Of a stretch of DNA of 64,000 bases, positions 46,424-60,335 are shown piece by piece (the stretch's first letter is position 1; each line of letters opens with the position of its first letter). The notes under the pieces are model-generated. The model searched no databases and had not been told where the DNA came from. It saw nothing but the letters and a program-made list of their open reading frames with translations. A program made the translations under genes and the position numbers. Source of the DNA: Hydrogenophaga sp. PBL-H3 (GTDB lineage: Bacteria > Pseudomonadota > Gammaproteobacteria > Burkholderiales > Burkholderiaceae_C). The DNA lies in the NCBI RefSeq assembly GCF_010104355.1, contig NZ_CP044972.1:2480001-2544000 (forward strand), given 5' to 3'.

Positions 46424-46552
46424 GTGACGCACTCACAAACCCATGGCCATGGCCCGGGCATGCGTCACAATCCGGGCTCGCCCCAACCTCCCCCCTCCCC
46501 CGCTCTCCCGGAGCCGTCCCTGAGCCGTTCTGGCTCGCCGCTCCCCCTTCGC

Positions 46553-48037
46553 ATGCAAAACGGAACCCTCCTCGCCGCCATCGACCTCGGCTCCAACAGT
46601 TTCCGGCTGGAAATCGGCCGTTACCACTCGGGCCACATCGAGCGCATCGAATACCTCAAGGAGACCGTGCGCCAGGGCAACGGGCTGGACGAGGAAAAAA
46701 ACCTCAGCCAGGCGGCCATGGAGCGTGGCTGGGAATGCCTGGCCCGGTTTGCCGAGCGGCTGCACGGCTTCAAGCGACAGCAGGTGCGCGCCGTGGCCAC
46801 CCAGACCCTGCGCGAGGCGAAGAACCGCGACGAATTCGTGCGCCAGGCCCAGGCCATCCTGGGTTTTCCGATCGACGTGGTGTCTGGCTACGAGGAGGCG
46901 CGCCTGATCTACCAGGGCGTCTCGCGCCTGCTGCCGCATTCAGACGAAAAACGCCTGGTGGTCGACATCGGGGGGCGCTCGACCGAGATGATCCTGGGCC
47001 AGGGTTATTCGGCCCGCACCATGGAGTCGTACCGCCTGGGCAGCGTGGCCTGGTCCACCCGCTATTTCCCGCGTGGCCAGCTCACCGCCGCCGCCTTCAA
47101 GACTGCTGAAGTGGCGGCCAAGGCGGTGATCGACGAGGCTCTGGACCGATTCCCCCCCGCCGACTGGACCGTGGCCTACGGTTCCTCGGGCACGGTGGGC
47201 GCGGTGGCCGACATGCTGGCCGCCAACGGCTGGGCCTCCGGCGTGGTCACCCGGGCGGGGCTCGACTGGCTCACCGATCGCATGATCAAGGCGGGCAATG
47301 TCGACCAGTTGCGCCTCGAAGGCCTGAAGGACGACCGACGCCCGGTGATCGGCGGTGGCCTGAGCGTGCTGCGCGCCATCTTTGATTTGTTCGGCATCGA
47401 GCAGATGCTGCCCGCCCAGGGCGCGCTGCGCCACGGCGCGCTGTACGACCTGATCGACCGCGACACCGATGGTGGCGACGTGCGCGAGCGCACCGTGAAC
47501 TGGCTGACCCACCGCTTCTCGGCCGATGAGGCCCAAGGCAAGCGCGTCAGCACGGTGAGCACCGCCCTCTTTTCACAAATTGCCGCGCTGGACGCGCAGA
47601 ACGAACGTTACTCGCAGAAACTGGCCTGGGCCGCTCGGCTGCACGAGATCGGCACCCACATTTCCCACGAACGCTCGCACCACCATGGCGCCTACATCCT
47701 GGACAACGTGGATGCACGCGGTTTCTCGCTGCCCGAACTGCACCGCATGAGCCAGCTGGTGCTGGGCCAGCGAGGCAAGCTTCGAAAGCTCGAAGACACA
47801 TTGCAGGACGAGCTCTTTGCCAAACAACTCATGGCCCTGCGCCTGGCGGTGTTGTTGTGCCACGCACGCCAGATGCCCGAGCACGAGTCGGTCAAGCTGA
47901 GTTACAAGCCACGCGCCTTCAAGCTGGCCACCAACCCTGGCTGGGCCAAGCGCTACCCACAATCGGCATGGTTGCTGGGCGAAGAGGTCGTGGCCTGGCA
48001 AAAGTCGGCGTGGAAGTTCACCGCCGACATCCGTTGA
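46553..48037 (+). CDS. ppx: exopolyphosphatase, Ppx/GppA family
   Basis: This 494-residue protein starts at the ATG at 46553 (MQNGTLLAAIDLGSNSFRLEIG); a 43-codon Pro-rich upstream extension is unlikely. The N-terminal phosphate-binding loop AIDLGSNSFRLE, the catalytic-region motifs VRAVATQTLREAKN and GYEEARLIYQGV, and VVDIGGRSTEMILG define the ASKHA fold of Ppx/GppA. A C-terminal HD-like helical domain has LHEIGTHISHERSHHHG. It removes terminal phosphate from polyphosphate, or phosphate from pppGpp. The place next to pst and ppk favours polyphosphate. No clear ribosome site is seen. Confidence 0.93.
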   Translation: MQNGTLLAAIDLGSNSFRLEIGRYHSGHIERIEYLKETVRQGNGLDEEKNLSQAAMERGWECLARFAERLHGFKRQQVRAVATQTLREAKNRDEFVRQAQAILGFPIDVVSGYEEARLIYQGVSRLLPHSDEKRLVVDIGGRSTEMILGQGYSARTMESYRLGSVAWSTRYFPRGQLTAAAFKTAEVAAKAVIDEALDRFPPADWTVAYGSSGTVGAVADMLAANGWASGVVTRAGLDWLTDRMIKAGNVDQLRLEGLKDDRRPVIGGGLSVLRAIFDLFGIEQMLPAQGALRHGALYDLIDRDTDGGDVRERTVNWLTHRFSADEAQGKRVSTVSTALFSQIAALDAQNERYSQKLAWAARLHEIGTHISHERSHHHGAYILDNVDARGFSLPELHRMSQLVLGQRGKLRKLEDTLQDELFAKQLMALRLAVLLCHARQMPEHESVKLSYKPRAFKLATNPGWAKRYPQSAWLLGEEVVAWQKSAWKFTADIR

Positions 48038-48044
48038 CGTCGCA

Positions 48045-48073
48045 CCGTCACACTGCCGTCACACTGCTGCCAC
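48045..48073 (+). promoter_or_regulatory. three phased Pho-box-like half-sites before the H1-like gene
   Basis: CCGTCAC (48045-48051), CCGTCAC (48056-48062) and CTGCCAC (48067-48073) are spaced exactly 11 bp apart. Each differs from the PhoB half-site CTGTCAC at one position. Spacing to the AT-rich TATAAA at 48079 is not the classic 10-11 nt, so PhoB control is plausible rather than certain. Confidence 0.5.
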
Positions 48074-48098
48074 AACCGTATAAACGATTTATACGGTT
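48074..48098 (+). promoter_or_regulatory. perfect 11-bp inverted repeat operator before the H1-like gene
   Basis: AACCGTATAAA (48074-48084) is the exact complement of TTTATACGGTT (48088-48098) across a CGA spacer. A further TTTATAC follows at 48097-48103. The dyad covers the probable -10 region (TATAAA or TATACT), as expected of a repressor site. The nearest DNA-binding candidate is the ribbon-helix-helix protein encoded 40 bp downstream, so autoregulation is inferred. Confidence 0.6.
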
Positions 48099-48137
48099 TA
48101 TACTGCTCTCCTTTTTATCGACCAACGGAGTGCATTC

Positions 48138-48584
48138 ATGGCCAGTCAGAGCAACAAGAAACCCAAGCTCGTGCGCGACAGCTTCACCATCCCCAAGGCG
48201 GAGTTCGCCGCCATTGAAACGCTGAAAACCCGCGCCATCGCGCTGGGCACCAGCGTGAAGAAGAGCGAGTTGCTGCGCGCTGGACTCATGGCCCTGCAAG
48301 GCCTCAACGACGCCGCCTACAAGGCTGCGCTGTCCGCCGTGCCCACGCTCAAGACCGGCCGCCCCACCGGCGCCGACAAGAAGCCCGAAGCCGCGAAGAA
48401 CCCAGCGAGCAAGCCAGCCGTCAAGGTAGCCGTGAAGACCGCCGTCAAGGTGGCGCCCAAGGCACCGGCCAAGCCATTGGCCAACCCCGCCAGCAAGACT
48501 GCCGCTCCAGCCGCCGCGAAAAAAGTCGCTGCCAAGCCCGCTGTGAAAAAAGCCGCTCCCGCCAAGAAGGCTGTGGCCGCCTGA
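48138..48584 (+). CDS. ribbon-helix-helix-like protein with histone H1-like Lys/Ala-rich tail
   Basis: This is a 148-residue, strongly basic protein. Residues about 10-60 (KLVRDSFTIPKAEFAAIETL, then LKKSELLRAGLMAL-like sequence) look like a ribbon-helix-helix strand followed by two helices. From about residue 70 the sequence is low-complexity Lys/Ala/Pro with KPA-V-K-V-A and AAKKVAAKPAVKKAA repeats, resembling bacterial histone H1-like or PhaF-type tails. GGAG lies 8 nt before the ATG. A perfect palindrome and Pho-box-like repeats precede it. It sits between ppx and the convergent sixA-ppk pair. DNA binding is likely. Binding of polyphosphate by the basic tail is my inference from context. 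Confidence 0.75.
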   Translation: MASQSNKKPKLVRDSFTIPKAEFAAIETLKTRAIALGTSVKKSELLRAGLMALQGLNDAAYKAALSAVPTLKTGRPTGADKKPEAAKNPASKPAVKVAVKTAVKVAPKAPAKPLANPASKTAAPAAAKKVAAKPAVKKAAPAKKAVAA

Positions 48585-48615
48585 AGCCTACCCGGGGCAC
48601 CGCTGCGGATGTCGC

Positions 48616-49110
48616 TCAGATCAGTTCAGGGGTCTGAACCGTGACCACCACGGTCTGGCTGCCATTGGCACGTTCGCGATGGCGCAGCCACCACAGCGCT
48701 CCCTTCTTCACCGAGCAGTCGTCCTCGGCCAGGTTGAGCAAGCGCGCAATCACCCGGCCCAGCGTGGGCTGGTGACCGACAACCACCACAGGCGACTTGC
48801 CGTTTGGCCACTGCACCAGTTCCAGCAGGGCCAGCGGGTCGCCCTCGGGCAACAGCTCTTCGCGCATCTTGAACTTGCGGCCCAGGGCCAGTGTGGTCTG
48901 CTCGCACCGCAAAGCCGGGCTGCTCCAGACGCGCGCGCCTTCGGGCAACTGCCGGTCCAGCCAGGCGGCCATGCGCGCGGCCTGCTTCTCGCCGCGCGGG
49001 GTGAGGCGTCGGGCCAGATCCCGGGCGTCGCCAGGCACCCCGGTCAGGAGATCGGGATGCTCATGCGCTTCGGCGTGCCGCCACAGGATGAGGTCCATCG
49101 TGCCGAGCAT
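48616..49110 (-). CDS. sixA: SixA-type phosphohistidine phosphatase
   Basis: This is a 164-residue protein of the histidine phosphatase (RHG) superfamily. Catalytic RHAE sits near residue 11 in MDLILWRHAEAHE. The rest of the pocket is visible as SSPALRCEQT and VVVGHQPTLG with the second His. The ATG at 49110 has AAGGG about 6 nt upstream; the conserved MDLILW start at 49098 is the alternative. SixA removes phosphate from histidines such as those of phosphotransfer proteins. It starts 3 bp after the ppk stop, so the two are cotranscribed. A role on phosphohistidine of Ppk or another partner is unproven. Confidence 0.88.
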   Translation of the reverse strand: MLGTMDLILWRHAEAHEHPDLLTGVPGDARDLARRLTPRGEKQAARMAAWLDRQLPEGARVWSSPALRCEQTTLALGRKFKMREELLPEGDPLALLELVQWPNGKSPVVVVGHQPTLGRVIARLLNLAEDDCSVKKGALWWLRHRERANGSQTVVVTVQTPELI

Positions 49111-49112
49111 CC

Positions 49113-51191
49113 CTATCCCTTGCTGCCGTAGCGCGCCATCAAGCTGGCCTGCGCCGAATGCATCACCGAGCGGGCGCGACCACTGCCAGTGATGCTGGCC
49201 GGCACATAGCGGCCATCGGGCTGCAGCAGCCAGGCGTCCTTGGTGTCGTGCAGGTAGGCCGACAGGCACTCGTCCATGATGCGGTGGCGCAGCGCATGGT
49301 CGGTCACGGGCCAGGCCAGTTCGATGCGGCGCAGCATGTTGCGGTTCATCCAGTCGGCACTGGAGAGCCACAGTTCTTCCGACTCTCCCGTGCGGAAATA
49401 GAACACCCTGGAATGCTCCAGCAGGCGCCCGATGACCGAGCGCACGCGCACGTTGTCGGTGAAACCCGGCACCTGCGCCGGCAGGATGCAGGCGCCGCGG
49501 ATGATGAGGTCGATCTTCACGCCCTGCTGCGATGCCGTGGCCAGCGCTCGGGCAAGTTGCTCGTCGGTCAGCGCATTCATCTTCACGATCACGCGTGCCT
49601 CCAGCCCAGCCTTGGCCGCGGCGCCCGCGGCGTCCAGCTTGTCGAGCATGGCCTTGTGCAGGTGAAACGGTGCGATCAGCGCCTTGTTGAGTTTGGGCAG
49701 GCGGTTCTGGCTGGCCAGGTGCAGGAATATCTGCTCCAGGTCGGCGGTGAGCGCGTCGTCGGCCGTGAGGTAGCTGATGTCGGTGTAGAGCCGGGCCGTG
49801 CCCGGGTTGTAGTTGCCGGTGGACAGGTGTGCATAGCGCTTGAGTCCAGCCTCTTCACGGCGGGTCACCAGCAGCATCTTGGCGTGGGTCTTGAGGCCCA
49901 CCACCCCATAGACCACCTGCGCGCCCACCGACTCCAGCCGCTCGGCGTAATTGATGTTGGCCTCTTCGTCGAAGCGGGCCTTGAGCTCCACCACGGCGGT
50001 CACTTCCTTGCCGCGGCGCACCGCTTCGCGCAGCAGGTTCATCAGCTCCGACTTCGCACCGGTTCTGTAGATGGTCTGCTTGATCGCCAGCACATCGGGG
50101 TCTTCCACCGCCTCGCGCAGGAAGGCCAGTACGGCATCGAAGCTCTCGTAGGGCTGGTGGATCAGCACGTCGCCCTGCTGCAGCCGTTCGAAGTACGACT
50201 GCCCGGGCGTGAGCTGCGCCGGCCAGCCCGCGTTGTAGTTGTCGAAGCGCAGCGCGGGCGCGTCGACCTTGTCGATCAGCTGGTTCAGGCGGACCAGGTT
50301 CACCGGCCCGGGCACGCGGTACAGCGCCTTGTGGGGCAGCACAAACTGCTCCAGCAAAAAATTCGACAGAAACTCCGAACACCCGGCCGACACTTCCAGG
50401 CGCAAGGCCTGCCCGTAGTGGCGCTGCTGCAGGCCCTTGCGCAGCGCGGTGCGCAGGTTCTTCACCTCTTCCTCGTCCACCGCAAGATCGGAATGGCGCG
50501 TGACGCGGAACTGGGAAAACTCGGTGACCTGGCGACCCGGGAACAGGTCGCCCAGGTGAGAGCGGATCAGGCTGGAGATGGAGACGAAGTGCGTCTGCTT
50601 GGAGCCCTTGACGGGCGGCATGCTGAAAAAGCGCGGCAGGATGCGCGGCACCTTGACGATGGCGATCTCGTTTTCGCGTCCGAAGGCGTCCTTGCCAGCC
50701 AGGCGCACGATGAAGTTGAGCGACTTGTTGGCCACCTGGGGAAACGGGTGCGCCGGGTCCAGCCCCACCGGCATCAGCAGGGGTTGCACTTCCTTGACGA
50801 AGAACTCCTTGACCCAACGGCGCTGGCGCGCGTTGCGCTCACCGTGCGAGATGAGCTTGATGCCCTTTTTCTCCAGCAGCGGCAGCAATTCGTCGTTGTA
50901 GATGGCGTACTGCTGCGCCACGAGCGTGTGGATTTCTTCGGACAGCTTCTCGAAAGTCTGCGCGGTGTACTGGCCGCGCTGCTCGTTGGCCTGCGCGGCC
51001 GTCAGGTGGGGTGCGACGCGCACCTCGAAGAACTCGTCGAGGTTGCTGGAGACGATGCTGAGGTAACGCAGGCGTTCCAGCAACGGTACGTCGGGACGAC
51101 GCGCCCAGTCCATGACACGTTCATTGAAGGCCAGGATGCTGTGGTCCCGGTCCAGCAGGGGAAACTTGTTGTTGGAGTTGTTGCCGCTCAT
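49113..51191 (-). CDS. ppk: polyphosphate kinase 1
   Basis: This 692-residue enzyme makes long-chain polyphosphate from ATP reversibly. The start MSGNNSNNKFPLLDRDHSILAFNERVMDWA fits the family; an upstream extension is possible but unlike homologues. The N-domain has NLDEFFEVR. The two phospholipase-D-like catalytic halves have GLKTHAKMLLVTR (the autophosphorylated His) and RLLEHSRVFYF (second catalytic His), plus STGNYNPGTARLYTD. A Pho box and -10 lie about 90-130 bp upstream, inside the end of the GT4 gene. ppk therefore appears to have its own phosphate-starvation promoter, with sixA following. Confidence 0.97.
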   Translation of the reverse strand: MSGNNSNNKFPLLDRDHSILAFNERVMDWARRPDVPLLERLRYLSIVSSNLDEFFEVRVAPHLTAAQANEQRGQYTAQTFEKLSEEIHTLVAQQYAIYNDELLPLLEKKGIKLISHGERNARQRRWVKEFFVKEVQPLLMPVGLDPAHPFPQVANKSLNFIVRLAGKDAFGRENEIAIVKVPRILPRFFSMPPVKGSKQTHFVSISSLIRSHLGDLFPGRQVTEFSQFRVTRHSDLAVDEEEVKNLRTALRKGLQQRHYGQALRLEVSAGCSEFLSNFLLEQFVLPHKALYRVPGPVNLVRLNQLIDKVDAPALRFDNYNAGWPAQLTPGQSYFERLQQGDVLIHQPYESFDAVLAFLREAVEDPDVLAIKQTIYRTGAKSELMNLLREAVRRGKEVTAVVELKARFDEEANINYAERLESVGAQVVYGVVGLKTHAKMLLVTRREEAGLKRYAHLSTGNYNPGTARLYTDISYLTADDALTADLEQIFLHLASQNRLPKLNKALIAPFHLHKAMLDKLDAAGAAAKAGLEARVIVKMNALTDEQLARALATASQQGVKIDLIIRGACILPAQVPGFTDNVRVRSVIGRLLEHSRVFYFRTGESEELWLSSADWMNRNMLRRIELAWPVTDHALRHRIMDECLSAYLHDTKDAWLLQPDGRYVPASITGSGRARSVMHSAQASLMARYGSKG

Positions 51192-51288
51192 GTCTGATGT
51201 TGTTGTTGTCGCCAGTTGCGCCTGCCCTGTGCCCAGGCACGCGGGACCCAGCCCAGTGTGCAAGGCCATCAACGCATGACTTGTGACG

Positions 51289-51322
51289 ATTATTCAACGA
51301 CAGGATGACGTTTGTGTGACAG
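51289..51322 (-). promoter_or_regulatory. Pho box and -10 element of ppk
   Basis: On the minus strand CTGTCAC (51316-51322) and ACGTCAT (51305-51311) are 11 bp apart. AATAAT (51289-51294, 5 of 6 to consensus) follows after 10 nt. The leader to the ppk ATG would be about 90 nt. The site overlaps the last codons of the upstream GT4 gene. Confidence 0.75.
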
Positions 51323-52402
51323 CTTCGTGATGCCAGCACCCTCATGGCCGTGCACGGCAAATTCCGAACGCAGGCGCTGCCGCCGGTGCCTCGGCAGCAT
51401 CACCAGATGCGACAGAAACAGCGCACCCGATCGTCCCCAGCCCAACAGCAATGCGCGGTTGCGTGCATCGTGGCGCTGCAGCTTGAGGGCCTCGTACCAG
51501 GCCTCACGCAAATCGTCGCGCAAGGAGCCCGCGCGGCTTTCACCCACCAGATGCAGCGGTCCGTCCACCGGGTAGGCGGCCACCGGCACGCCACAGGCCA
51601 TGGCCTCCAGCATGGCCTTGCCCTGGGTTTCTCCACGACCGGGAAACACGAACACGTCGGCTGCGGCATACACCTGCACCAGCTCTTGCCGTGGCAACTC
51701 GCCGAGCCAGTGCACATTGGGATAACGCGCGCGCAGGCTCGATGCCAGCGGGCCGTCACCACACACCACCTTGCTGCCGGGCACATCCAGCGACAGGAAG
51801 GCCTCCAGGTTTTTTTCGACCGAGAGCCGCCCCACGTACAGACTGACCGGGTGGGCCAGGGGACCGAGCGAAGCGCTGGACCGGGTTCGATCGGTCAACG
51901 CAAACAGATGCGTGTCCACGCCGGGTGTCCACTGCCGCAGGCGCTCGAAACCGCGCTCCTGCAGGCGGTTGAGCAAGCCCTGGTTGGGCACCATCACGCC
52001 GCCGGATGGCCGGTGAAACCAGCGCAGCAGCGCGTAACTCCAGGACAGCGGCAAACGGAATGCGGCTTGCAGCATCTCGGGAAACCGACTGTGAAACGCG
52101 GTGGTGAACGGCAGACCGCGCCGCACGCAGTGGCGCCGCGCCGCCCATCCCAACGGGCCTTCGGTGGCAATGTGGATCGCATCGGGGTCGGCGGCGTCCA
52201 TGAGCGAACGCAGCCGAGCGCCGGGAAACAGCGCGATCTCCAGCCCCGGACAACCCGGACAAGGCCGTGTGCGGAACTGCCCCGGCTGTATCACCACCAC
52301 CTCGTGGCCACCGACTTGCAACTGGCGCACCAGCTCCACCAGGGTGGAGACCAGCCCATGGACTTGCGGCAGCCAGGCGTCGGTGACGAGCAGGATTTTC
52401 AT
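51290..52402 (-). CDS. GT4-family glycosyltransferase
   Basis: This is a 370-residue GT-B fold enzyme. The N-terminal acceptor domain starts MKILLVTDAWLPQVHGLVSTL, with the Gly-rich loop and TAFHSRFPEML. The C-terminal donor domain has SLYVGRLSVEKNLEAFL and the E-x7-E motif in GETQGKAMLEAMACGVPVAAYPVDG. Family members include diacylglycerol and phosphatidylinositol glycosyltransferases. The start lies 7 bp after the acyltransferase stop, so the pair forms an operon. With an OlsB-like partner and ppk next door, synthesis of a phosphate-free glycolipid is a reasonable guess, not shown by sequence. Confidence 0.82.
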   Translation of the reverse strand: MKILLVTDAWLPQVHGLVSTLVELVRQLQVGGHEVVVIQPGQFRTRPCPGCPGLEIALFPGARLRSLMDAADPDAIHIATEGPLGWAARRHCVRRGLPFTTAFHSRFPEMLQAAFRLPLSWSYALLRWFHRPSGGVMVPNQGLLNRLQERGFERLRQWTPGVDTHLFALTDRTRSSASLGPLAHPVSLYVGRLSVEKNLEAFLSLDVPGSKVVCGDGPLASSLRARYPNVHWLGELPRQELVQVYAAADVFVFPGRGETQGKAMLEAMACGVPVAAYPVDGPLHLVGESRAGSLRDDLREAWYEALKLQRHDARNRALLLGWGRSGALFLSHLVMLPRHRRQRLRSEFAVHGHEGAGITKLSHKRHPVVE

Positions 52403-52409
52403 GGGCGCA

Positions 52410-53222
52410 TCAGGCCCCCAGGAAGTGCTTGCGGTAGCGCGCGGGCAGATCGGAGATGCGCATGAGCATGGGCAAGTCGGCGGCATTGAAATCCGGGTCC
52501 CAGGCCGGCGGGCCCAGCACCTTGGCGCCCAGGCGCAGGTAGCCCTTGATCAGCGCGGGTGGCTCCACGTCCAGCGTGTCGTCGAGCCGCTCCACCGGCA
52601 ACGGCAGGCGTGGGCGCACGTGAAAATCGATCGGCGCGAGGTGCGTCTGCCGCACCTGGCGCCAGATGCTGGCCGCTGCGTGACCACCACCCACCATGCC
52701 GTGCGGGCCTTCGTGCTGCATGGGGATGCTGGCGCAGCCGATCATGGTGTCGAGCTGGTTGCGCACCATGAATTCGGCCAGCGCGCCCCACAGCGCCATG
52801 ATCACGCCGCCATGGCGGTGATCGCGGTGCACGCAGCTGCGGCCAAGCTCCACCATGCGCTCGCGCACGCCACGCAGGCGGGTGAGGTCGAACTCGGTGT
52901 CGCTGTAGGTGCTGCCCACACGCTTGGCCTGGGCCGGCGTGAGCACGCGGTAGGTGCCGATCACCTGCCGGGTGGCGCTGTCGCGCACCAGCAGGTGTTC
53001 GCAGAAGTCGTCGAAGAGGTCCACGTCATGGCCGGGCAGCGTGTTGGGCAGGCGGGCGCCCATCTCACGGGAGAACACGTCAAACCGGAGTTTCTGTGCC
53101 TCGCGCACTTCGCTCTGGTGCCGGGCCCAGGAAACCTCGATGCCGTGTGCAACCGGCTGCGCCGGTACAGGGACGAAGACCGTCTCTGGCGGAATGGCGT
53201 GGGGGATGAAGGTTGTGGTCAT
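52410..53222 (-). CDS. OlsB-like GNAT N-acyltransferase (hemolysin-type family)
   Basis: This 270-residue protein starts at the ATG at 53222. A GNAT-like acyl-ACP-dependent domain covers about 30-190, with AQKLRFDVFSREMGARLP, FCEHLLVRDSATRQVIGTYRVL and ELGRSCVHRDHRHGGVIMALWGALAEFM. This is the pattern of ornithine-lipid N-acyltransferase (OlsB) and related hemolysin-like proteins. OlsB attaches a 3-hydroxy fatty acid to ornithine, often during phosphate limitation. No OlsA partner is seen in the window, so the acceptor is uncertain. A weak Pho-box-like repeat lies 47-64 bp upstream. It is divergent from the arsenic operon. Confidence 0.78.
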   Translation of the reverse strand: MTTTFIPHAIPPETVFVPVPAQPVAHGIEVSWARHQSEVREAQKLRFDVFSREMGARLPNTLPGHDVDLFDDFCEHLLVRDSATRQVIGTYRVLTPAQAKRVGSTYSDTEFDLTRLRGVRERMVELGRSCVHRDHRHGGVIMALWGALAEFMVRNQLDTMIGCASIPMQHEGPHGMVGGGHAAASIWRQVRQTHLAPIDFHVRPRLPLPVERLDDTLDVEPPALIKGYLRLGAKVLGPPAWDPDFNAADLPMLMRISDLPARYRKHFLGA

Positions 53223-53268
53223 GAACAGGCAGTGTGAAAACCGGTCATGACCCTCACAAGGCACTCGC

Positions 53269-53286
53269 ATGAAGTTTTGATGACGG
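53269..53286 (-). promoter_or_regulatory. weak Pho-box-like repeat before the acyltransferase gene
   Basis: On the minus strand CCGTCAT (53280-53286) and ACTTCAT (53269-53275) lie 11 bp apart. The first matches the PhoB half-site at 6 of 7 positions, the second at only 4. The expected -10 position (TGTGAG) is poor. Low confidence. Confidence 0.3.
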
Positions 53287-53304: not shown

Positions 53305-53333
53305 TTGTTATTTCAAATATCATTGAAATATAT
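53305..53333 (+). promoter_or_regulatory. ars operon promoter with palindromic ArsR-type operator
   Basis: TTGTTA (53305-53310) and ATATAT (53328-53333) are 17 nt apart. Between them, overlapping both, TATTTCAA (53309-53316) and TTGAAATA (53323-53330) form a perfect 8-bp dyad across 6 nt. AT-rich TTGAAAT-type dyads are typical ArsR/SmtB operators. A repressor bound here would cover the promoter. The arsR gene is encoded further along the same operon. Confidence 0.7.
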
Positions 53334-53351
53334 GAAAGGCACCTGAAAGCC

Positions 53352-54683
53352 ATGAACCTCGCCGACACCCTCAACCTGGGCTGCGCCTGCCAGACGCTGT
53401 CCATGCCCCACCTGCGCGAGCAGCTGGAAACCGGCCCGGCGCTCGACGGCCTGGCCGCGCGGCTGACGCTGAGCCATCCCCACCTCTTTTCGGCCACCGC
53501 CGTGTTCCTCGACAGCGCCATGGCACAGCGCATCGGGCAGGCGGTGGCGGCCATCGAGCGCGTGATCGCCCTGCCCGCCTGGCAAGACCAGGCGTTGGCG
53601 CGGGCGCCAGCGATTGCCGCCCTCAACCACGGCCCGGTGGGCGTGTTCATGGGCTACGACTTCCACCTCACCAGCACGGGTCCGCGGTTGATAGAGATCA
53701 ACAGCAACGCCGGCGGCGGGGTGCTCAACGCGGCCCTGGCCCGCGCGCACAGCGCCTGCTGCAACGCCATGGGCGAGGTGGTTGATCCACGCGGCACGCT
53801 GGAGTCGATCGACACGGTGTTCGTCGACATGTTCCGCTCGGAATGGGCCTTGCAGCGGGGCGACGCACCACTGCGCACCGTGCTCATCGTGGACGATGCG
53901 CCCGACCAGCAGTACCTGGCACCCGAGTTCGAGCTCGTGCGCGAACTGTTCGCCGCGCACGGCCTCACCGCCCTGGTGGCCGACGCGGCCGATCTGCAGT
54001 GGCGGGATGGCGCACTGCACCACCCCGCCCTGCCACCCGGCACGCCGGTGGACCTGGTCTACAACCGCCTGACCGACTTTTACCTGCAAGACGAGGCCCA
54101 CCAGGCCTTGCGGCTTGCTCATGAGGCCGGCGCAGTGGTGCTCACACCGCACCCGCGCACCCATGCCCTGTACGCCGACAAACGCAACCTCATTGCCCTC
54201 TCCGATACCGATCTGCTCGCCCGCTGGGGCGTGAGCGAGGCCGACCGCGCCCTGCTGCAGGCCGTGGTGCCCGCCACGCAACGGGTGGGCACCCACAACG
54301 CAGACGAGCTGTGGGCCGGGCGCCGAGGTTTGTTCTTCAAGCCGGCCGCCGGGTTTGGTGCGCGCGCGGCCTACCGGGGCGACAAGCTCACGCGCCGCGT
54401 GTGGGGCGAGATCCTGGCGGGCGACTACGTGGCCCAGGCCCTGGTGCCACCGAGCGAGCGCCTGGTGCGGGTTCAGGACGGCACCCAACTGCTCAAGCTG
54501 GACCTGCGGGCCTACACCTACCGGGGTGACGTGCAACTCCTGGCCGCACGCACCTGGACCGGCCAGACCACCAACTTCCGCACCGAGGGAGGCGGCTTCT
54601 CGCCGGTGGTGGTGGTGCCCACGATGCCGGCGGCGCTGTCACAGAACGGTCACGAAGTCGCACAACAATTCAACACTCGTTGA
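53352..54683 (+). CDS. uncharacterised ATP-grasp-like protein heading the ars operon
   Basis: This is a 443-residue protein starting at the ATG at 53352 ([19 protein letters not shown]), just after the ars promoter. I do not recognise a named family. Visible segments suggest an ATP-grasp ligase fold, perhaps circularly permuted. [23 protein letters not shown] resembles a metal-ligand motif, and [13 protein letters not shown] and [14 protein letters not shown] resemble glutathionylspermidine-synthase-like segments. [29 protein letters not shown] looks like an ATP-binding Lys strand. Cys residues occur at GCACQ and SACC. It is 44 bp upstream of the ArsJ-linked GAPDH gene and shares its promoter. 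Ligation of an arsenical or a protective thiol/amine conjugate is conceivable. No signal peptide is seen. Confidence 0.7.
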
Positions 54684-54727
54684 ATAGTTTGACGCCCTTC
54701 TGCGTCCCACCCTCCACAGGACATTTC

Positions 54728-55771
54728 ATGAAAGTTGGCATCAACGGCATGGGCCGCATCGGCCGCCTGGCCCTGCGCGCCGCCCTCGGCGCGGCCGAGC
54801 GCGAAGCCACCGACCCGCGCGCCGGCAACCGGCTGCAAGTGGTGCACCTCAACGAACTCAAGGGTGGCGCTGCGGCCACCGCCCACCTGCTGGCCTTTGA
54901 CAGCGTGCAGGGCAAATGGCGCGCCGACATCGCCTCCGAGGGTGAAGACAGCATCCGCATCGACCAGCAGCGTTTGTCGTTCTCTTCTCACGCCGCCCCA
55001 GGCGACATTCCCTGGGGCGATCTGGGGGTGGACCTGGTGCTGGAGTGCACCGGCAAGTTCCTCACGCCAGAGACGATTCAGGGCCACCTGGACCGGGGCG
55101 CGAAGCGCGTGATCGTGGCCGCGCCGGTGAAGACGGGCGGTGTGCTCAACGTCGTGGTGGGCGTGAACCACATGCTCTACGAACCCGTGCGCGACCGCAT
55201 CGTGACCGCCGCCTCGTGCACCACCAACTGCCTGGCGCCGGTTGTGAAGGTGGTTCATGAAGCCATCGGCATCCGCCACGGCCAGATCACCACGCTGCAC
55301 AACCCGACCAACACCAACCTGGTGGTGGACGCGCCGCACAAGGACCTGCGACGCGCCCGCAGCGCGCTCATGAGCCTGGCGCCCACAACCACCGGCAGCG
55401 CCACCGCCATCGCGCTGATCTACCCCGAACTCAAGGGCAAGCTCAACGGCCACGCGGTGCGCGTGCCGGCGCTCAACGCCTCGCTCACCGACTGCGTGTT
55501 CGAGCTGCAGCGCGAGACCACGGTGGACGAAGTCAATGGCCTGTTTGCCGCGGCGGCGCAGGGCCCGCTGGCCGGCATTCTGGGTCACGAGACGCGCCCG
55601 CTGGTGAGCGCCGATTACGCACGCGACACGCGGTCGAGCATCGTGGACGCGCCGTCCACCATGGTCACCGACGGCACGCTGCTCAAGGTCTACGCCTGGT
55701 ACGACAACGAGATGGGCTACGCCTGCCGCATGGTCGACCTGGCCTGCCACATGCACAGCGTCGGCATCTGA
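54728..55771 (+). CDS. ArsJ-associated glyceraldehyde-3-phosphate dehydrogenase
   Basis: This is a 347-residue GAPDH. The NAD-binding start is [20 protein letters not shown]. The active site is [14 protein letters not shown] with the nucleophilic Cys. The inorganic-phosphate/substrate loop region is [12 protein letters not shown], and the C-terminal [12 protein letters not shown] is conserved. AGGA precedes the ATG. In ars operons this enzyme uses arsenate in place of phosphate to form unstable 1-arseno-3-phosphoglycerate, which ArsJ exports. The assignment to arsenic rather than glycolysis rests on the adjacent arsJ and arsR and on the shared upstream operator. Confidence 0.92.
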
Positions 55772-55855: not shown

Positions 55856-57094
55856 ATGAACACAGCAGAACGCAACTACGCCATCGTCACCGCCGCCTAC
55901 TGGGGCTTCACGCTCACCGACGGCGCGCTGCGCATGCTGGTGCTGCTGCACTTCTACCAACTCGGCTATTCGCCGTTCACGCTCGCATTTCTGTTTCTGC
56001 TGTACGAGGCGGCGGGCATCGTGGCCAATTTCATCGGTGGCTGGCTGGCCACGCGCTATGGCATCACACGCATGCTCACCGTGGGACTGGTCACGCAGAT
56101 CGTCGGATTCACCGTGTTGTCCTTCCTCGATCCGGGCTGGAGCGCGGCGATGTCGGTGGCCTGGGTGGTGCTGGCGCAAGGCATCTGCGGTGTGGCCAAA
56201 GACCTCACCAAGACCGCCAGCAAGTCGGCCATCAAGGTCACGGCCGACCAGGCCAAAAACCAGGGCTCGGGCCAGCTCTTCAAGTGGGTGGCCTGGTTCA
56301 CCGGCAGCAAGAACGCCATGAAGGGCGTCGGCTTCTTCCTCGGCGGCCTGCTGCTGCAGATGCTGGGCTTTCAGCACGCGCTGTGGGCCATGGCGGCGCT
56401 GCTGGCGCTGGTGCTGATGGGTGTGGTGAGCGCGCTGCCACAGATGATGGGCAAAAACAAGGCGTCCAGGTCCGCGAAAGAACTGTTCGCCAAGAACACG
56501 GGCGTGAATGTGCTGGCCGCCGCACGCGTGGTGCTGTTTGGCGCGCGTGACGTGTGGTTTGTGGTGGGCGTGCCGGTGTACCTGTACTCGCAGGGCTGGA
56601 CCTTCACCATGGTCGGCACGTTTCTGGCGGCCTGGACCATCGGCTACGGCGCAGTGCAGGCCATGGCACCCGCTTTTGTGAAGCGCAGCACCGACGGCCT
56701 GAGCACCGAGGTACCCGCCGCGCGTCTGTGGTCGGCCTTGCTGGCGCTGGTGCCCATGGCGCTGGCCGTGGCGGTGGCGCTGGACGTGCCGCACCTGCCC
56801 TGGGTGGTGGTGGGTGGGCTGGGCGTGTTCGGCTTTGCGTTCGCGGTGAACTCGTCCGTGCACTCCTACCTGGTACTGGCCTACGCGGGTTCGGAAAAAG
56901 CGGCCGAGGACGTGGGCTTTTACTACGCGGCCAACGCACTCGGCCGCTTCAGCGGCACGCTGCTCTCGGGCCTGCTGTACCAGTGGGGCGGCCTGCTCTA
57001 TGCGCTGCTGGGCTCCGCGCTCATGCTGGTCGCGTGCTGGCTGGCCACGCTCAAGCTGCCCATCCGCCCGCCCCTGCAACACACACCTGCCTGA
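55856..57094 (+). CDS. arsJ: organoarsenical efflux MFS transporter ArsJ
   Basis: This 412-residue major facilitator has about 12 membrane segments. It starts MNTAERNYAIVTAAYWGFTLTDGALRMLVLLHF, a strong ArsJ signature. The conserved GVAKDLTKTASKSAIK and GSGQLFKWVAWFTGSKNAMKGVGFFLGG loops are characteristic. It exports 1-arseno-3-phosphoglycerate made by the preceding GAPDH, which then breaks down outside to give net arsenate efflux. No obvious ribosome site precedes the ATG. An REP-like repeat separates it from the GAPDH gene. Confidence 0.95.
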   Translation: MNTAERNYAIVTAAYWGFTLTDGALRMLVLLHFYQLGYSPFTLAFLFLLYEAAGIVANFIGGWLATRYGITRMLTVGLVTQIVGFTVLSFLDPGWSAAMSVAWVVLAQGICGVAKDLTKTASKSAIKVTADQAKNQGSGQLFKWVAWFTGSKNAMKGVGFFLGGLLLQMLGFQHALWAMAALLALVLMGVVSALPQMMGKNKASRSAKELFAKNTGVNVLAAARVVLFGARDVWFVVGVPVYLYSQGWTFTMVGTFLAAWTIGYGAVQAMAPAFVKRSTDGLSTEVPAARLWSALLALVPMALAVAVALDVPHLPWVVVGGLGVFGFAFAVNSSVHSYLVLAYAGSEKAAEDVGFYYAANALGRFSGTLLSGLLYQWGGLLYALLGSALMLVACWLATLKLPIRPPLQHTPA

Positions 57095-57104
57095 AAGACA
57101 TCCC

Positions 57105-57434
57105 ATGGACGAAATCCAAGCCGTCAAGTCCCTCGGAGCCCTGGCGCAGGAAACACGCCTGCGCATCTTCCGCGCACTGGTGGCGCAAGGGCCTCTGGGC
57201 CTCACACCGGGCCAACTCACCGAAGTGCTGGGCGTGGCAGGCACGGCGCTGTCGTTCCACCTCAAGGAGCTCAGCCATGCGGGTCTTGTTTCACAAGAGC
57301 GCAACGGCCGCCACCTGATCTACCGCGCCGAGTTCAGCACCATGAACGACTTGCTGCAATTCCTCACCGCCCACTGCTGCCAGGGTGAGCCCTGCGAGGT
57401 GACCGCCTCCGTTGCTGTCTGCACCACCTGCTGA
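57105..57434 (+). CDS. arsR: arsenic-responsive repressor ArsR
   Basis: This is a 109-residue winged-helix repressor. The N-terminus QAVKSLGALAQETRLRIFRALVAQGP and recognition helix VAGTALSFHLKELSHAGLV are typical ArsR/SmtB sequence. The classical CxC in the DNA-binding helix is absent. Instead Cys91, Cys92 and Cys97 (HCCQGEPC) and Cys106/Cys109 (CTTC) lie at the C-terminus, as in the Acidithiobacillus-type ArsR that binds As(III) there. It follows arsJ by 10 bp and should repress the promoter at 53305-53333, making the operon autoregulated. Confidence 0.93.
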   Translation: MDEIQAVKSLGALAQETRLRIFRALVAQGPLGLTPGQLTEVLGVAGTALSFHLKELSHAGLVSQERNGRHLIYRAEFSTMNDLLQFLTAHCCQGEPCEVTASVAVCTTC

Positions 57435-57447
57435 AAGGTTTTCCAGA

Positions 57448-57708
57448 ATGGACTTCGTGCGAACCGTGTGCGACAAGGCGGCCGGCGAGATGTGCCCGGT
57501 GTGGCCTGGGCAGCCCATGTCGGCCCACCGGGGCGTTGAAGATCCTGCGGCGGTCAAGGGCAGCGATGAGACCATCCAGCGAGCGTTCAACGACCGTTTC
57601 ATCGTTCTGAACCGGCGCATTGCCCTGCTCTCGGTGCTGCCCATCCACAAGCTCGACAAGCACGCACTCAAAAACGAGCTCACCGGCATAGGACGGGTCT
57701 CAGCCTGA
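57448..57708 (+). pseudogene. arsC: N-terminally truncated arsenate reductase ArsC fragment
   Basis: These 86 codons match only the C-terminal half of the low-molecular-weight-phosphatase-type ArsC: MDFVRTVCDKAAGEMCPVWP, GQPMSAHRGVEDPAAV and the [10 protein letters not shown]-type tail. The catalytic C-x5-R phosphate loop and the first ~75 residues are missing, and only 13 bp separate it from arsR, so the 5' half was deleted. The ATG corresponds to an internal Met of the full protein and has AAAGG about 9 nt upstream. The stop overlaps the acr3 start (TGATG), so the remnant is probably still translated and coupled to acr3. It cannot reduce arsenate by the known mechanism. Confidence 0.85.
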
Positions 57709-58742
57709 TGGGACTCTTTGAACGTTACTTGACGCTGTGGGTGGCGCTGGGGATCGCCGCCGGGGCGGGGCTGGGGCTGCTCGCACCCGCCGGATTTCAG
57801 GCCGTGGCTGCGATGGAGGTCGCGCAGGTCAACCTGGTCGTGGCCGTGTTCATCTGGGTGATGATTTACCCCATGATGATCCAGATCGACTGGCACGCCG
57901 TGCGCGATGTGGGCAATAAGCCGCGAGGGCTGCTGCTCACGCTGGTGGTCAACTGGCTGATCAAGCCTTTCACCATGGCCGCTCTCGGCGTGCTGTTCTT
58001 CCAGGTCATCTTTGCGCCCTGGGTCGATCCGCAGTCGGCCAGCGAATACATCGCCGGCATGATTTTGCTGGGCGTGGCGCCCTGCACGGCCATGGTCTTC
58101 GTGTGGAGCCAGCTCGTCAAAGGCGATGCGAGCTACACGCTGGTGCAAGTGTCGATCAACGACCTCATCATGGTGGTGGCGTTCGCGCCCATCGCGGCGT
58201 TTTTGCTGGGAGTGACCAACGTGACCGTGCCCTGGGAAACGCTGCTCCTGTCCACCGTGCTCTACGTGGTGCTGCCCCTGGCAGCCGGCATGCTCACACG
58301 CAAGTGGCTGATGCAACGCGGACCTGCTGCGATGAGCTCGTTTGTGGCCGCGCTCAAGCCGTGGTCGGTGATCGGCCTGATTGCCACCGTGGTGCTGCTG
58401 TTCGGTTTTCAGGCACAAACCATCGTGCGCCAGCCACTGGTGATTCTGCTCATCGCGGTGCCGCTGGTGTTGCAGAGCTACGGCATCTTCTTCATCACCT
58501 GGTGGGGCGCGAAATGGCTCCAGCTGCCGCACAACGTGGCGGGCCCGGCCTGCCTGATCGGTACTTCCAACTTCTTCGAACTGGCAGTGGCCGTGGCCAT
58601 TTCGCTCTTCGGTTTGAACTCGGGCGCGGCGCTGGCCACCGTGGTCGGCGTGCTGGTGGAGGTGCCGGTGATGCTGTCGCTGGTGGCCCTGGTCAACGCC
58701 TGGCGACCCGCCGAAACAGGCCTGCGGACAGGCCCCCCTTGA
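57708..58742 (+). CDS. acr3: arsenite efflux transporter Acr3
   Basis: This is a 344-residue member of the BASS-like Acr3 family with about 10 membrane segments. The signature [31 protein letters not shown] contains the conserved Cys needed for arsenite transport; [10 protein letters not shown] and [25 protein letters not shown] are also conserved. It expels As(III) using the proton gradient. The ATG at 57708 overlaps the truncated arsC stop by one base. A short hairpin follows the stop. Confidence 0.95.
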
Positions 58743-58889: not shown

Positions 58890-60335
58890 ATGGAACTGTT
58901 CCTGAGGATGATCCACGGTGGGGCCGGCAGCCTGGCGGCCTACCTGGCGGCGCACGTGTTGCTGTGCCTGCTGCCCGCGTTCTTCATTGCCGGGGCCATG
59001 GCCGCGCTGATTCCCAAGGCCAGCATCACGCGCTGGCTGGGGCGCCATGTGCCCGCCTTCGTGTCTTACCCGGCGGCTGCGGCCGCGGGCTCGCTGCTGG
59101 CGGTGTGCTCCTGCACCATCGTGCCCTTGTTTGCCGGCATCTACCGCAAGGGTGCCGGTATCGGCCCGGCCATGACGTTCCTGTTCTTCGCACCGGCGGG
59201 CAACGTCATGGCGCTGGCCTACACCGGCAGCATCCTCGGACCGGAATTTGCCGTCGCCCGCCTCGTGCTGTGTCTGATGTTCGGCGTCGGCATCGGCCTG
59301 TTGATGGCGCTGATTTTCTGGCGCGACGACGCGGCCCACGACGCCCAGACCGACCAGCTGTTTGCCGACCGGGCCAGCGTCTCGCCGGCCGCGCTGGGCG
59401 TCATGGTTTCGCTGGTGGCACTGCTGATTGCGGGCACGCTGAAGCTGTGGCCACTCACCGCTGCGCTGGGTTCGTTCGCATTGCCCGGGTCGTGGGCGCA
59501 GAGCTGGCAGGCCACCCTGCTTGGCTGGGTGCCGTTTGACTCGGCCCGGGGCGAAGAAGGCGTGAGCCTGCACGGCTCGGTGCTCATCGTGTTGCTGGTG
59601 CTGGTGGCCACCACGGCGGGGAAAGGGCTGGAGAACATCATCGAAGGGGCCAACCGCTGGACCTGGCTCGTGCTGGGACTGGCGGCCACCACACTGCTGG
59701 TGGCTTCACTGAGCCTGGTGCCTGGCCTCCAGGGGCTTGAGATCGAGGTCACTGGCCGCACTGTCGGTGTTGCGCTCGCCATGGCGTCTGTGTGGTACCA
59801 CGCGCGTCAGCTGCCGGCCGACGACTGGCGCTCATGGCTGTGGGAAACCTGGCGCTTCGTGAAGCAGATCTTTCTGGTGCTGGTGATCGGCGTGTTCATT
59901 GTCGGCATGGCGCGCCAGGTGATCCGGCCTGAGTGGATCGAGTCCCTGGCCGGCAGCAACACGGTGCAGGCCAACGTGGTGGCGGTCGGCTTTGGTGTCT
60001 TCATGTACTTCCCCACGCTGGTGGAGGTGCCGGTGGCGCGCATGTTCCTCGATCTCGGCATGCACCCGGGCCCCTTGCTGGCCTACCTCATGGCCGATCC
60101 GGAACTCAGCCTGCAAAGCATGTTGATGGTGGCCGCCGTCATCGGCTGGACCAAGACCGCAACCTACGTGGGCTGGGTGGCGGTCTTCAGCGTGTGCGCC
60201 GGCCTGATTTTTGGCGCCTGGTCCGATGGCGTGGGCTGGCCATCGCTGGCGGCGGTGATGGCGCTCGTGCTGGGCTCACTGGCCGTGGCAGTGGGCCGGC
60301 TGCGGCGGCGCTGGCGCGCCTCCGTGCCCGCTTGA
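58890..60335 (+). CDS. ArsP/YraQ-family permease (DUF318)
   Basis: This is a 481-residue membrane protein with about 10-12 segments. The family hallmark LLAVCSCTIVPLFAGIYRKGAGIGPAMTF-like segment is present, as is a second one, VFMYFPTLVEVPVARMFLDLGMHPGP. Known relatives export organoarsenicals (ArsP) or other metals. The exact substrate is not fixed by sequence. The place directly after acr3 and before a small CxxC protein suggests an arsenic or metal role. AAGGAG lies about 11 nt before the ATG. Confidence 0.8.
   Translation: MELFLRMIHGGAGSLAAYLAAHVLLCLLPAFFIAGAMAALIPKASITRWLGRHVPAFVSYPAAAAAGSLLAVCSCTIVPLFAGIYRKGAGIGPAMTFLFFAPAGNVMALAYTGSILGPEFAVARLVLCLMFGVGIGLLMALIFWRDDAAHDAQTDQLFADRASVSPAALGVMVSLVALLIAGTLKLWPLTAALGSFALPGSWAQSWQATLLGWVPFDSARGEEGVSLHGSVLIVLLVLVATTAGKGLENIIEGANRWTWLVLGLAATTLLVASLSLVPGLQGLEIEVTGRTVGVALAMASVWYHARQLPADDWRSWLWETWRFVKQIFLVLVIGVFIVGMARQVIRPEWIESLAGSNTVQANVVAVGFGVFMYFPTLVEVPVARMFLDLGMHPGPLLAYLMADPELSLQSMLMVAAVIGWTKTATYVGWVAVFSVCAGLIFGAWSDGVGWPSLAAVMALVLGSLAVAVGRLRRRWRASVPA

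Follow-up and report, generated by a model that had tools for sequence, protein, structure and literature searches.

A predicted circularly permuted ATP-grasp ligase of a previously unnamed family is attached to bacterial soft-metal(loid) resistance modules

Introduction

Metal-resistance operons are usually described in terms of sensors, redox enzymes and pumps. For the ArsJ pathway, VarH and the algal PGK3 have been reported as accessories, and like the gene analyzed here they are encoded by an extra gene beside GAPDH and arsJ (PMC9601151, PMC7826186). One of them is regarded as a putative phosphatase and the other as a PGK-like protein; neither is an ATP-grasp ligase, which is the type of enzyme predicted for the protein analyzed in this paper. 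Characterized circularly permuted ATP-grasp enzymes with solved structures (YgiC/YjfC, Cp1B) are amide ligases, which join an acid to an amine (PMC12568646). YgiC and YjfC are peptide-spermidine ligases, and Cp1B (PDB entry 9cjn), a fungal ligase of the E-64 pathway, couples epoxysuccinate with an amino acid to form an amide (PMC12568646).

Here, we analyzed a stretch of 64,000 nucleotides (the window) from the genome of Hydrogenophaga sp. PBL-H3 (4.8 Mb, 3 contigs). A first-pass annotation of this DNA had suggested that an uncharacterized ATP-grasp-like gene is the first gene of an ArsR-controlled ArsJ operon, with a palindromic operator inside a well-spaced promoter, and that its product might conjugate an arsenical or a protective thiol or amine.

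Results

Identity of the gene and its neighborhood

The gene is located at 53352-54683 (plus strand) and encodes a protein of 443 amino acids, which we classify as a predicted circularly permuted ATP-grasp ligase on the basis of an AlphaFold model, PDB fold matches and residue conservation in 60 homologs plus 196 hits. The reading frame (first residues MNLADTLN) is open throughout, its GC3 amounts to 0.88 and the start codon is shared by dozens of genomes, many of them from Burkholderiales; these data indicate that the gene is genuine. When we searched Pfam and NCBIfam, no model claimed the protein (NCBIfam gave none at E up to 1). A PDB sequence search yielded zero matches, and a PDB search with the family profile returned only two chance matches, both of them short adaptor proteins. 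The earlier statement that the protein matches no named ars function is supported. Plasmid-borne relatives are annotated as 'hypothetical protein', as 'conserved hypothetical protein' or not at all, and together with the missing Pfam and NCBIfam models this explains why the family is easily overlooked. The gene was also absent from the listed titles and abstracts on circularly permuted ATP-grasp proteins and on ars operons, ArsJ or copper/arsenic resistance in combination with ATP-grasp or glutathione synthetase. The ATP-grasp protein mentioned in an arsJ paper (PMC7826186) is encoded elsewhere, in an algal cluster for a sunscreen compound. An 'ATP-grasp domain-containing protein' of Nitratiruptor is induced by cadmium and copper (PMC10092412), but any kinship with the ligase family would be conjecture and we draw no support from it.

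Downstream on the same strand we found the GAPDH-arsJ-arsR-acr3 series named in the first-pass annotation, and NCBIfam and Pfam matches confirmed each of these assignments. The ArsJ-associated glyceraldehyde-3-phosphate dehydrogenase (54728..55771; NF033735, 538 bits, cut-off 450) is followed by the ArsJ organoarsenical/arsenate efflux permease (55856..57094; NF033734, 525 bits, cut-off 400), an ArsR/SmtB-family repressor (57105..57434; NF033788, 64.6 bits, cut-off 55; PF12840 and PF01022) and the Acr3 arsenite efflux transporter (57708..58742; TIGR00832, 406 bits, cut-off 282.8). Directly in front of acr3 there is a C-terminal remnant of a thioredoxin-type arsC (57448..57708, plus strand), which matches TIGR02691 partially from position 71 onward and, when compared with the full-length homologue of locus L002, lacks the N-terminal half and with it the CTGNSAR active site. 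Elsewhere in this genome, no arsC scored above the TIGR02691 or TIGR00014 cut-off, and GAPDH-ArsJ probably carries the arsenate handling of the strain. An ArsP/SO_0444-like permease gene 3' of acr3 (58890..60335, plus strand; PF03773, 222.8 bits) is possibly part of the resistance cluster. On the other side, the ligase-ars cluster adjoins a block of ppx, ppk, sixA-like, glycosyltransferase and ornithine-lipid acyltransferase (OlsB-like) genes (46424-53270). This block is found on the same side of the cluster in many Burkholderiales, and this recurrence suggests a preferred chromosomal insertion site.

Fold prediction and comparison with known ligases

The AlphaFold model, which was calculated with 60 homologs, reached a pLDDT of 93 and a pTM of 0.91. 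In Foldseek, glutathione synthetases from human, yeast and plants had the smallest E-values (about 1e-14). VIA-align returned Z-scores of 28 for YgiC, 26 for homoglutathione synthetase, 25 each for GspS, human glutathione synthetase and trypanothione synthetase, and 23 for Cp1B. Altogether, 26 entries of the permuted type aligned over 322-390 residues with Z-scores of 23-28; for the non-permuted RimK, LysX and GshB the Z-scores were at most 9.3. According to this model, the protein is a circularly permuted ATP-grasp over its whole chain. The ATP-grasp-like segments recognized in the first pass are present and form part of the ATP-grasp core, and the fold proposed there is borne out.

The closest structural relatives differ from the window protein in several respects. 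YgiC/YjfC and GspS, which belong to PF03738, share its permuted fold, with Z-scores of 25-28 across about 340-357 residues, and the D...E-x-N pattern of magnesium binding, but in the window protein a glycine appears to occupy the position of the expected catalytic arginine, and neither its four cysteines nor its linkage to metal operons are known for YgiC/GspS. Eukaryotic-type glutathione and homoglutathione synthetases have the same fold (Z 24.9-26.3) with 12-15% identity. Nevertheless, this likeness is insufficient for membership in that group. With E up to 1 as limit, the window protein matched no glutathione synthetase family of Pfam, and no such family was among those listed for the 60 homologs. 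The bacterial GshB model TIGR01380 was not matched either (NCBIfam, E up to 1), and an ordinary GshB is encoded by a separate gene of the same genome. Cp1B, which has the same fold and also lacks a Pfam domain, is 14% identical to the window protein and carries R-x-D...E-x-N, whereas the window family carries G-x-D...E-x-N. Finally, there is a sub-threshold likeness to CP_ATPgrasp_2 (PF14403), to which E-values of up to 1 were obtained for 26 of the 60 members (best value 8e-8); with 12.5 bits the window protein does not reach the curated cut-off of 32.

Since the structural matches included the ATP-grasp proteins RimK, which acts in protein glutamylation, and ITPK1, which is a kinase, one may ask whether the enzyme modifies a metal-handling protein or peptide, as ligase or kinase, rather than a metabolite. 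However, the nearest folds are small-molecule or peptide ligases and the gene has no recurrent neighbor that encodes a conserved small partner protein, and we consider such a function distinctly improbable. Ligase rather than kinase activity is what we infer.

Active site and conserved cysteines

Nine residues (D103, E115, N117, K277, K330, K382, D384, R386, R400) are kept in practically all of the 196 hits except for fragments. D103, E115 and N117 are putative magnesium ligands, K277 and K330 are conserved lysines, and K382-D384-R386...R400 constitutes a C-terminal set. This conservation is what one expects of the residues that bind magnesium and ATP in an ATP-grasp enzyme; the GspS register leans on a weak alignment. 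In fact, hhalign gave no significant alignment with either YgiC or GspS, and for GspS only the magnesium-binding motif was in register (YDFHL...IEIN aligned with 'DF...YEYN'), from which the D103/E115/N117 assignment follows. In Cp1B, alanine exchange of R139, D141, E163 or N165 abolished or strongly reduced the activity. The arginine that precedes the magnesium-binding aspartate by two residues in this enzyme (R139-x-D141) would be replaced by Gly101 in the window protein if D103 is the magnesium-binding aspartate. Gly101 is invariant except for a few Ser/Cys. If the D-E-N register is right, the acid may be bound in a different way, and even the reaction may be a different one. Taken together, the ATP/magnesium side of the active site looks active, and the acid-binding side appears, as judged from the sequence, unlike that of characterized enzymes, which would explain why the gene is kept out of PF03738 and the glutathione synthetases.

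These data bear on the idea that the enzyme is a glutathionylspermidine or trypanothione synthetase-like protein, which would join glutathione to a polyamine or another amine and thereby form a better metal chelator. YgiC, GspS and trypanothione synthetase are among the best whole-chain structural matches (Z 24-28). However, PF03738 (GSP_synth) was not matched by the window protein at E up to 1, although E. coli GspS (221 bits) and YgiC (547 bits) match this model, and the lack of a significant hhalign alignment and the apparent glycine-for-arginine replacement point in the same direction. We therefore regard this explanation as unlikely.

Four cysteines arranged as a CxC (C11, C13) and a CC (C136, C137) pair are near-invariant in the arsenic- and metal-linked branches of the family. 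Among 97 non-redundant sequences, both pairs were present in 77, both were incomplete or absent in 15 and only 5 were split; the pairs are thus co-present or co-absent in 92/97 (Fisher p = 7e-13, relatedness ignored). Divergent relatives lack both pairs but have the same catalytic residues as the other groups, so that the quartet marks the metal-linked branches. Probably, these four cysteines bind the metal(loid) or a thiolate of it.

ArsR-type operators

An ArsR-type operator (TTCAA-N6-TTGAA) is located at 53312..53327 and ends 24 bp 5' of the start codon. This palindrome, TTCAAATATCATTGAA, is the sole match in the window when one mismatch is allowed, and shuffled sequences gave none. It is kept 5' of the orthologue in L002, L003, L018, L082 and L105 as a phylogenetic footprint, and the motif precedes arsR in 41 of 53 loci (shuffled expectation 0.6%). 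Thus, the operator proposed about 20 bp in front of the gene was confirmed. The well-spaced promoter proposed around it did not hold up, since a sigma-70 consensus scan found none; TTGTTA-18-TATATG, which flanks the palindrome, is a weak promoter candidate at most.

A second ArsR-type operator, TTCAACACTCGTTGAA, is an exact TTCAA-N6-TTGAA at 54669..54684, where it overlaps the stop codon of the ligase gene and precedes GAPDH. Sites with at least 9/10 matches were found within 90 bp 5' of GAPDH in 17 of 21 loci, compared with 0.8% in shuffles. GAPDH-arsJ may have a separate ArsR-controlled promoter, and because it carries its own ArsR site the ligase gene need not head a single transcript. Hence, of the suggestion that this is the first gene of one operon, the operator in front and the ars genes downstream on the same strand stand, but the single operon is not established. 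Perfect ArsR palindromes also precede solitary copies of the gene in two loci (L018:7943-7958 and L048:7962-7977) with no listed ars gene within 6 kb. This fits membership of the gene in an ArsR regulon that would reach past the operon.

Genomic context of the family

A scan of GTDB species genomes yielded 318 relatives, of which the best 80 were kept by similarity to the window protein. Altogether, 122 family loci were counted within 6 kb; these loci are not independent, and 80 of them were picked by this similarity. Counting ars, copper, mercury, RND-efflux and CDF neighbors uniformly, we found an ars or metal gene in 88/122 loci (ars genes in 58 and metal or CDF genes in 38, with some overlap) compared with 2 of 40 random 13.3-kb regions from the survey genomes (Fisher p = 1e-14). 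The rate was lower in the class/phylum subset (11/21), and none of the 16 loci of divergent relatives had such neighbors. The reference set overlooks some neighbors: L206 was scored 'none' despite annotated copper proteins nearby. Of 98 loci whose flanks covered 4 kb or more on each side, 20 carried no listed resistance gene or arsR.

In many loci, including those of the closest relatives, arsR lies directly 5' of the gene, usually at a distance of 8-30 bp, and the neighbors of the closest relatives include arsC, acr3, arsH, arsI, aquaporin, ArsA or an ArsK-like MFS protein. Moreover, family members were found on 32 plasmid records. Their neighbors on plasmids include copper P-type ATPases, CopB, multicopper oxidases, CueR and DUF305 genes, an RND efflux system, a CDF transporter and a mer operon with organomercurial lyase. 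Arsenic, copper, mercury and CDF contexts have no partner gene in common. In a quick maximum-likelihood tree of 97 sequences, three clades stand out: a betaproteobacterial, mostly ars-linked one (34 rows, support 100), a mostly copper/metal-linked one (20 rows, support 99) and a divergent one (12 rows, support 100), which is widespread among genomes from several further families of the phylum and whose members lack the N-terminal ~43 residues. It can be seen that this previously unnamed family is attached to soft-metal(loid) resistance modules.

Some members (L101, L109, L197, L198, L206, L207) have an additional C-terminal region of roughly 120-170 amino acids, and for the three regions that were tested (L101, L198, L207) Pfam gave no match. 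In the subgroup of L044, L047, L050 and L053, the gene order is CDF transporter, ligase gene, glutathione S-transferase-like gene, and this order hints at glutathione chemistry. One family includes four genomes (L172:8895-10198 and L173-L175) in which a divergent relative is followed by the TIGR04283 and TIGR04282 'arsenosugar biosynthesis' glycosyltransferases, and these neighbors possibly hint at an ancestral role.

The plasmid records and the members without metal neighbors would be compatible with a gene that merely travels as mobile cargo of metal islands and whose function is unrelated to metals. We give this explanation little credence because the gene is tightly coupled to arsR, with the operator kept even before the solitary copies L018 and L048, because no fewer than two supported clades, the ars one and the copper/metal one, show the metal association, and because the cysteine quartet occurs in the metal-linked branches but is missing from divergent relatives.

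Relation to ArsJ

When 369 genomes of the class were surveyed, 72 contained ArsJ over the cut-off, 14 contained the ligase gene and 2 contained both, compared with 2.7 expected for independence. These two are the genome of the window and G465, and in G465 the genes reside on different contigs. An ArsJ-specific partnership was rejected on account of this chance-level co-occurrence. Within 6 kb of the ligase gene arsJ was present in 14/122 loci, and both counts show that ArsJ is one partner among several. The ArsJ-operon framing of the first-pass annotation thus survives in part: the gene does recur near arsJ and in arsenic operons of many genomes, but it is not specific for ArsJ.

An arsenic-specific ligase, which would conjugate an arsenical or a compound derived from 1-arseno-3-phosphoglycerate in the GAPDH-ArsJ arsenate pathway, would account for the adjoining GAPDH-arsJ genes here and arsJ near 13 other loci, for the ArsR operator 5' of the gene, for the arsM gene that adjoins one family member and for the 'arsenosugar' glycosyltransferases behind the divergent relatives. 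However, ArsJ is missing from most loci, and a large supported clade resides in copper/mercury islands without ars genes. The many relatives in copper, mercury, RND and CDF islands without an arsenic gene argue against arsenic-specific chemistry, and we consider it improbable.

Discussion

Our favored but tentative interpretation is that the protein is an ATP-dependent amide ligase of soft-metal resistance modules, which makes or modifies a small, probably thiol, ligand, with its cysteines contacting the metal(loid). Arsenite, either taken up or formed inside the cell, would free the palindrome at 53312-53327 from ArsR, so that the enzyme is produced. The enzyme would then activate the carboxylate of a common metabolite as acyl phosphate, with Mg-ATP being held by D103, E115, N117 and the conserved lysines, and would join the activated acid to an amine, whereby a low-molecular-weight soft-metal ligand is made or altered. 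Most likely, this ligand would be a glutathione- or cysteine-based thiol buffering As(III), Cu(I), Hg(II) or Zn/Cd ahead of export. The cysteine quartet, which probably holds the metal(loid) or a thiolate, might tune the activity or present the substrate.

Several observations guided this proposal. Ordinary metabolites are likely substrates because there is no partner gene common to the different contexts, and a lone enzyme that is useful in all of them would most simply yield a product that handles soft metals in general, as is also suggested by the plasmid-borne copies next to copper, mercury, CDF and RND genes. Relatives are attached to resistance clusters for arsenic, copper and mercury, and probably also to clusters for zinc/cadmium. 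The fold shared with glutathione synthetases and GspS makes a thiol ligand or conjugate the leading candidate, and the conjugation of a protective thiol or amine, as put forward in the first pass, is our best guess. Additional glutathione would be a less likely and unsatisfying product since the host has a normal GshB.

In a bolder form, which we consider doubtful, one stand-alone enzyme of arsenic, copper, mercury and zinc/cadmium modules would build a metabolite of a so far undescribed kind that binds soft metals, much as phytochelatin or trypanothione do in other organisms, and the enzyme would itself sense the metal via its CxC and CC cysteines. Since the gene has no constant partner and its substrates are likely to be ordinary, the function should be directly testable with one purified protein. 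If our proposal is true, a conserved ATP-dependent ligase of arsenic, copper, mercury and CDF modules would mean that many bacteria not only sense, convert and pump but also respond by making or editing a small molecule.
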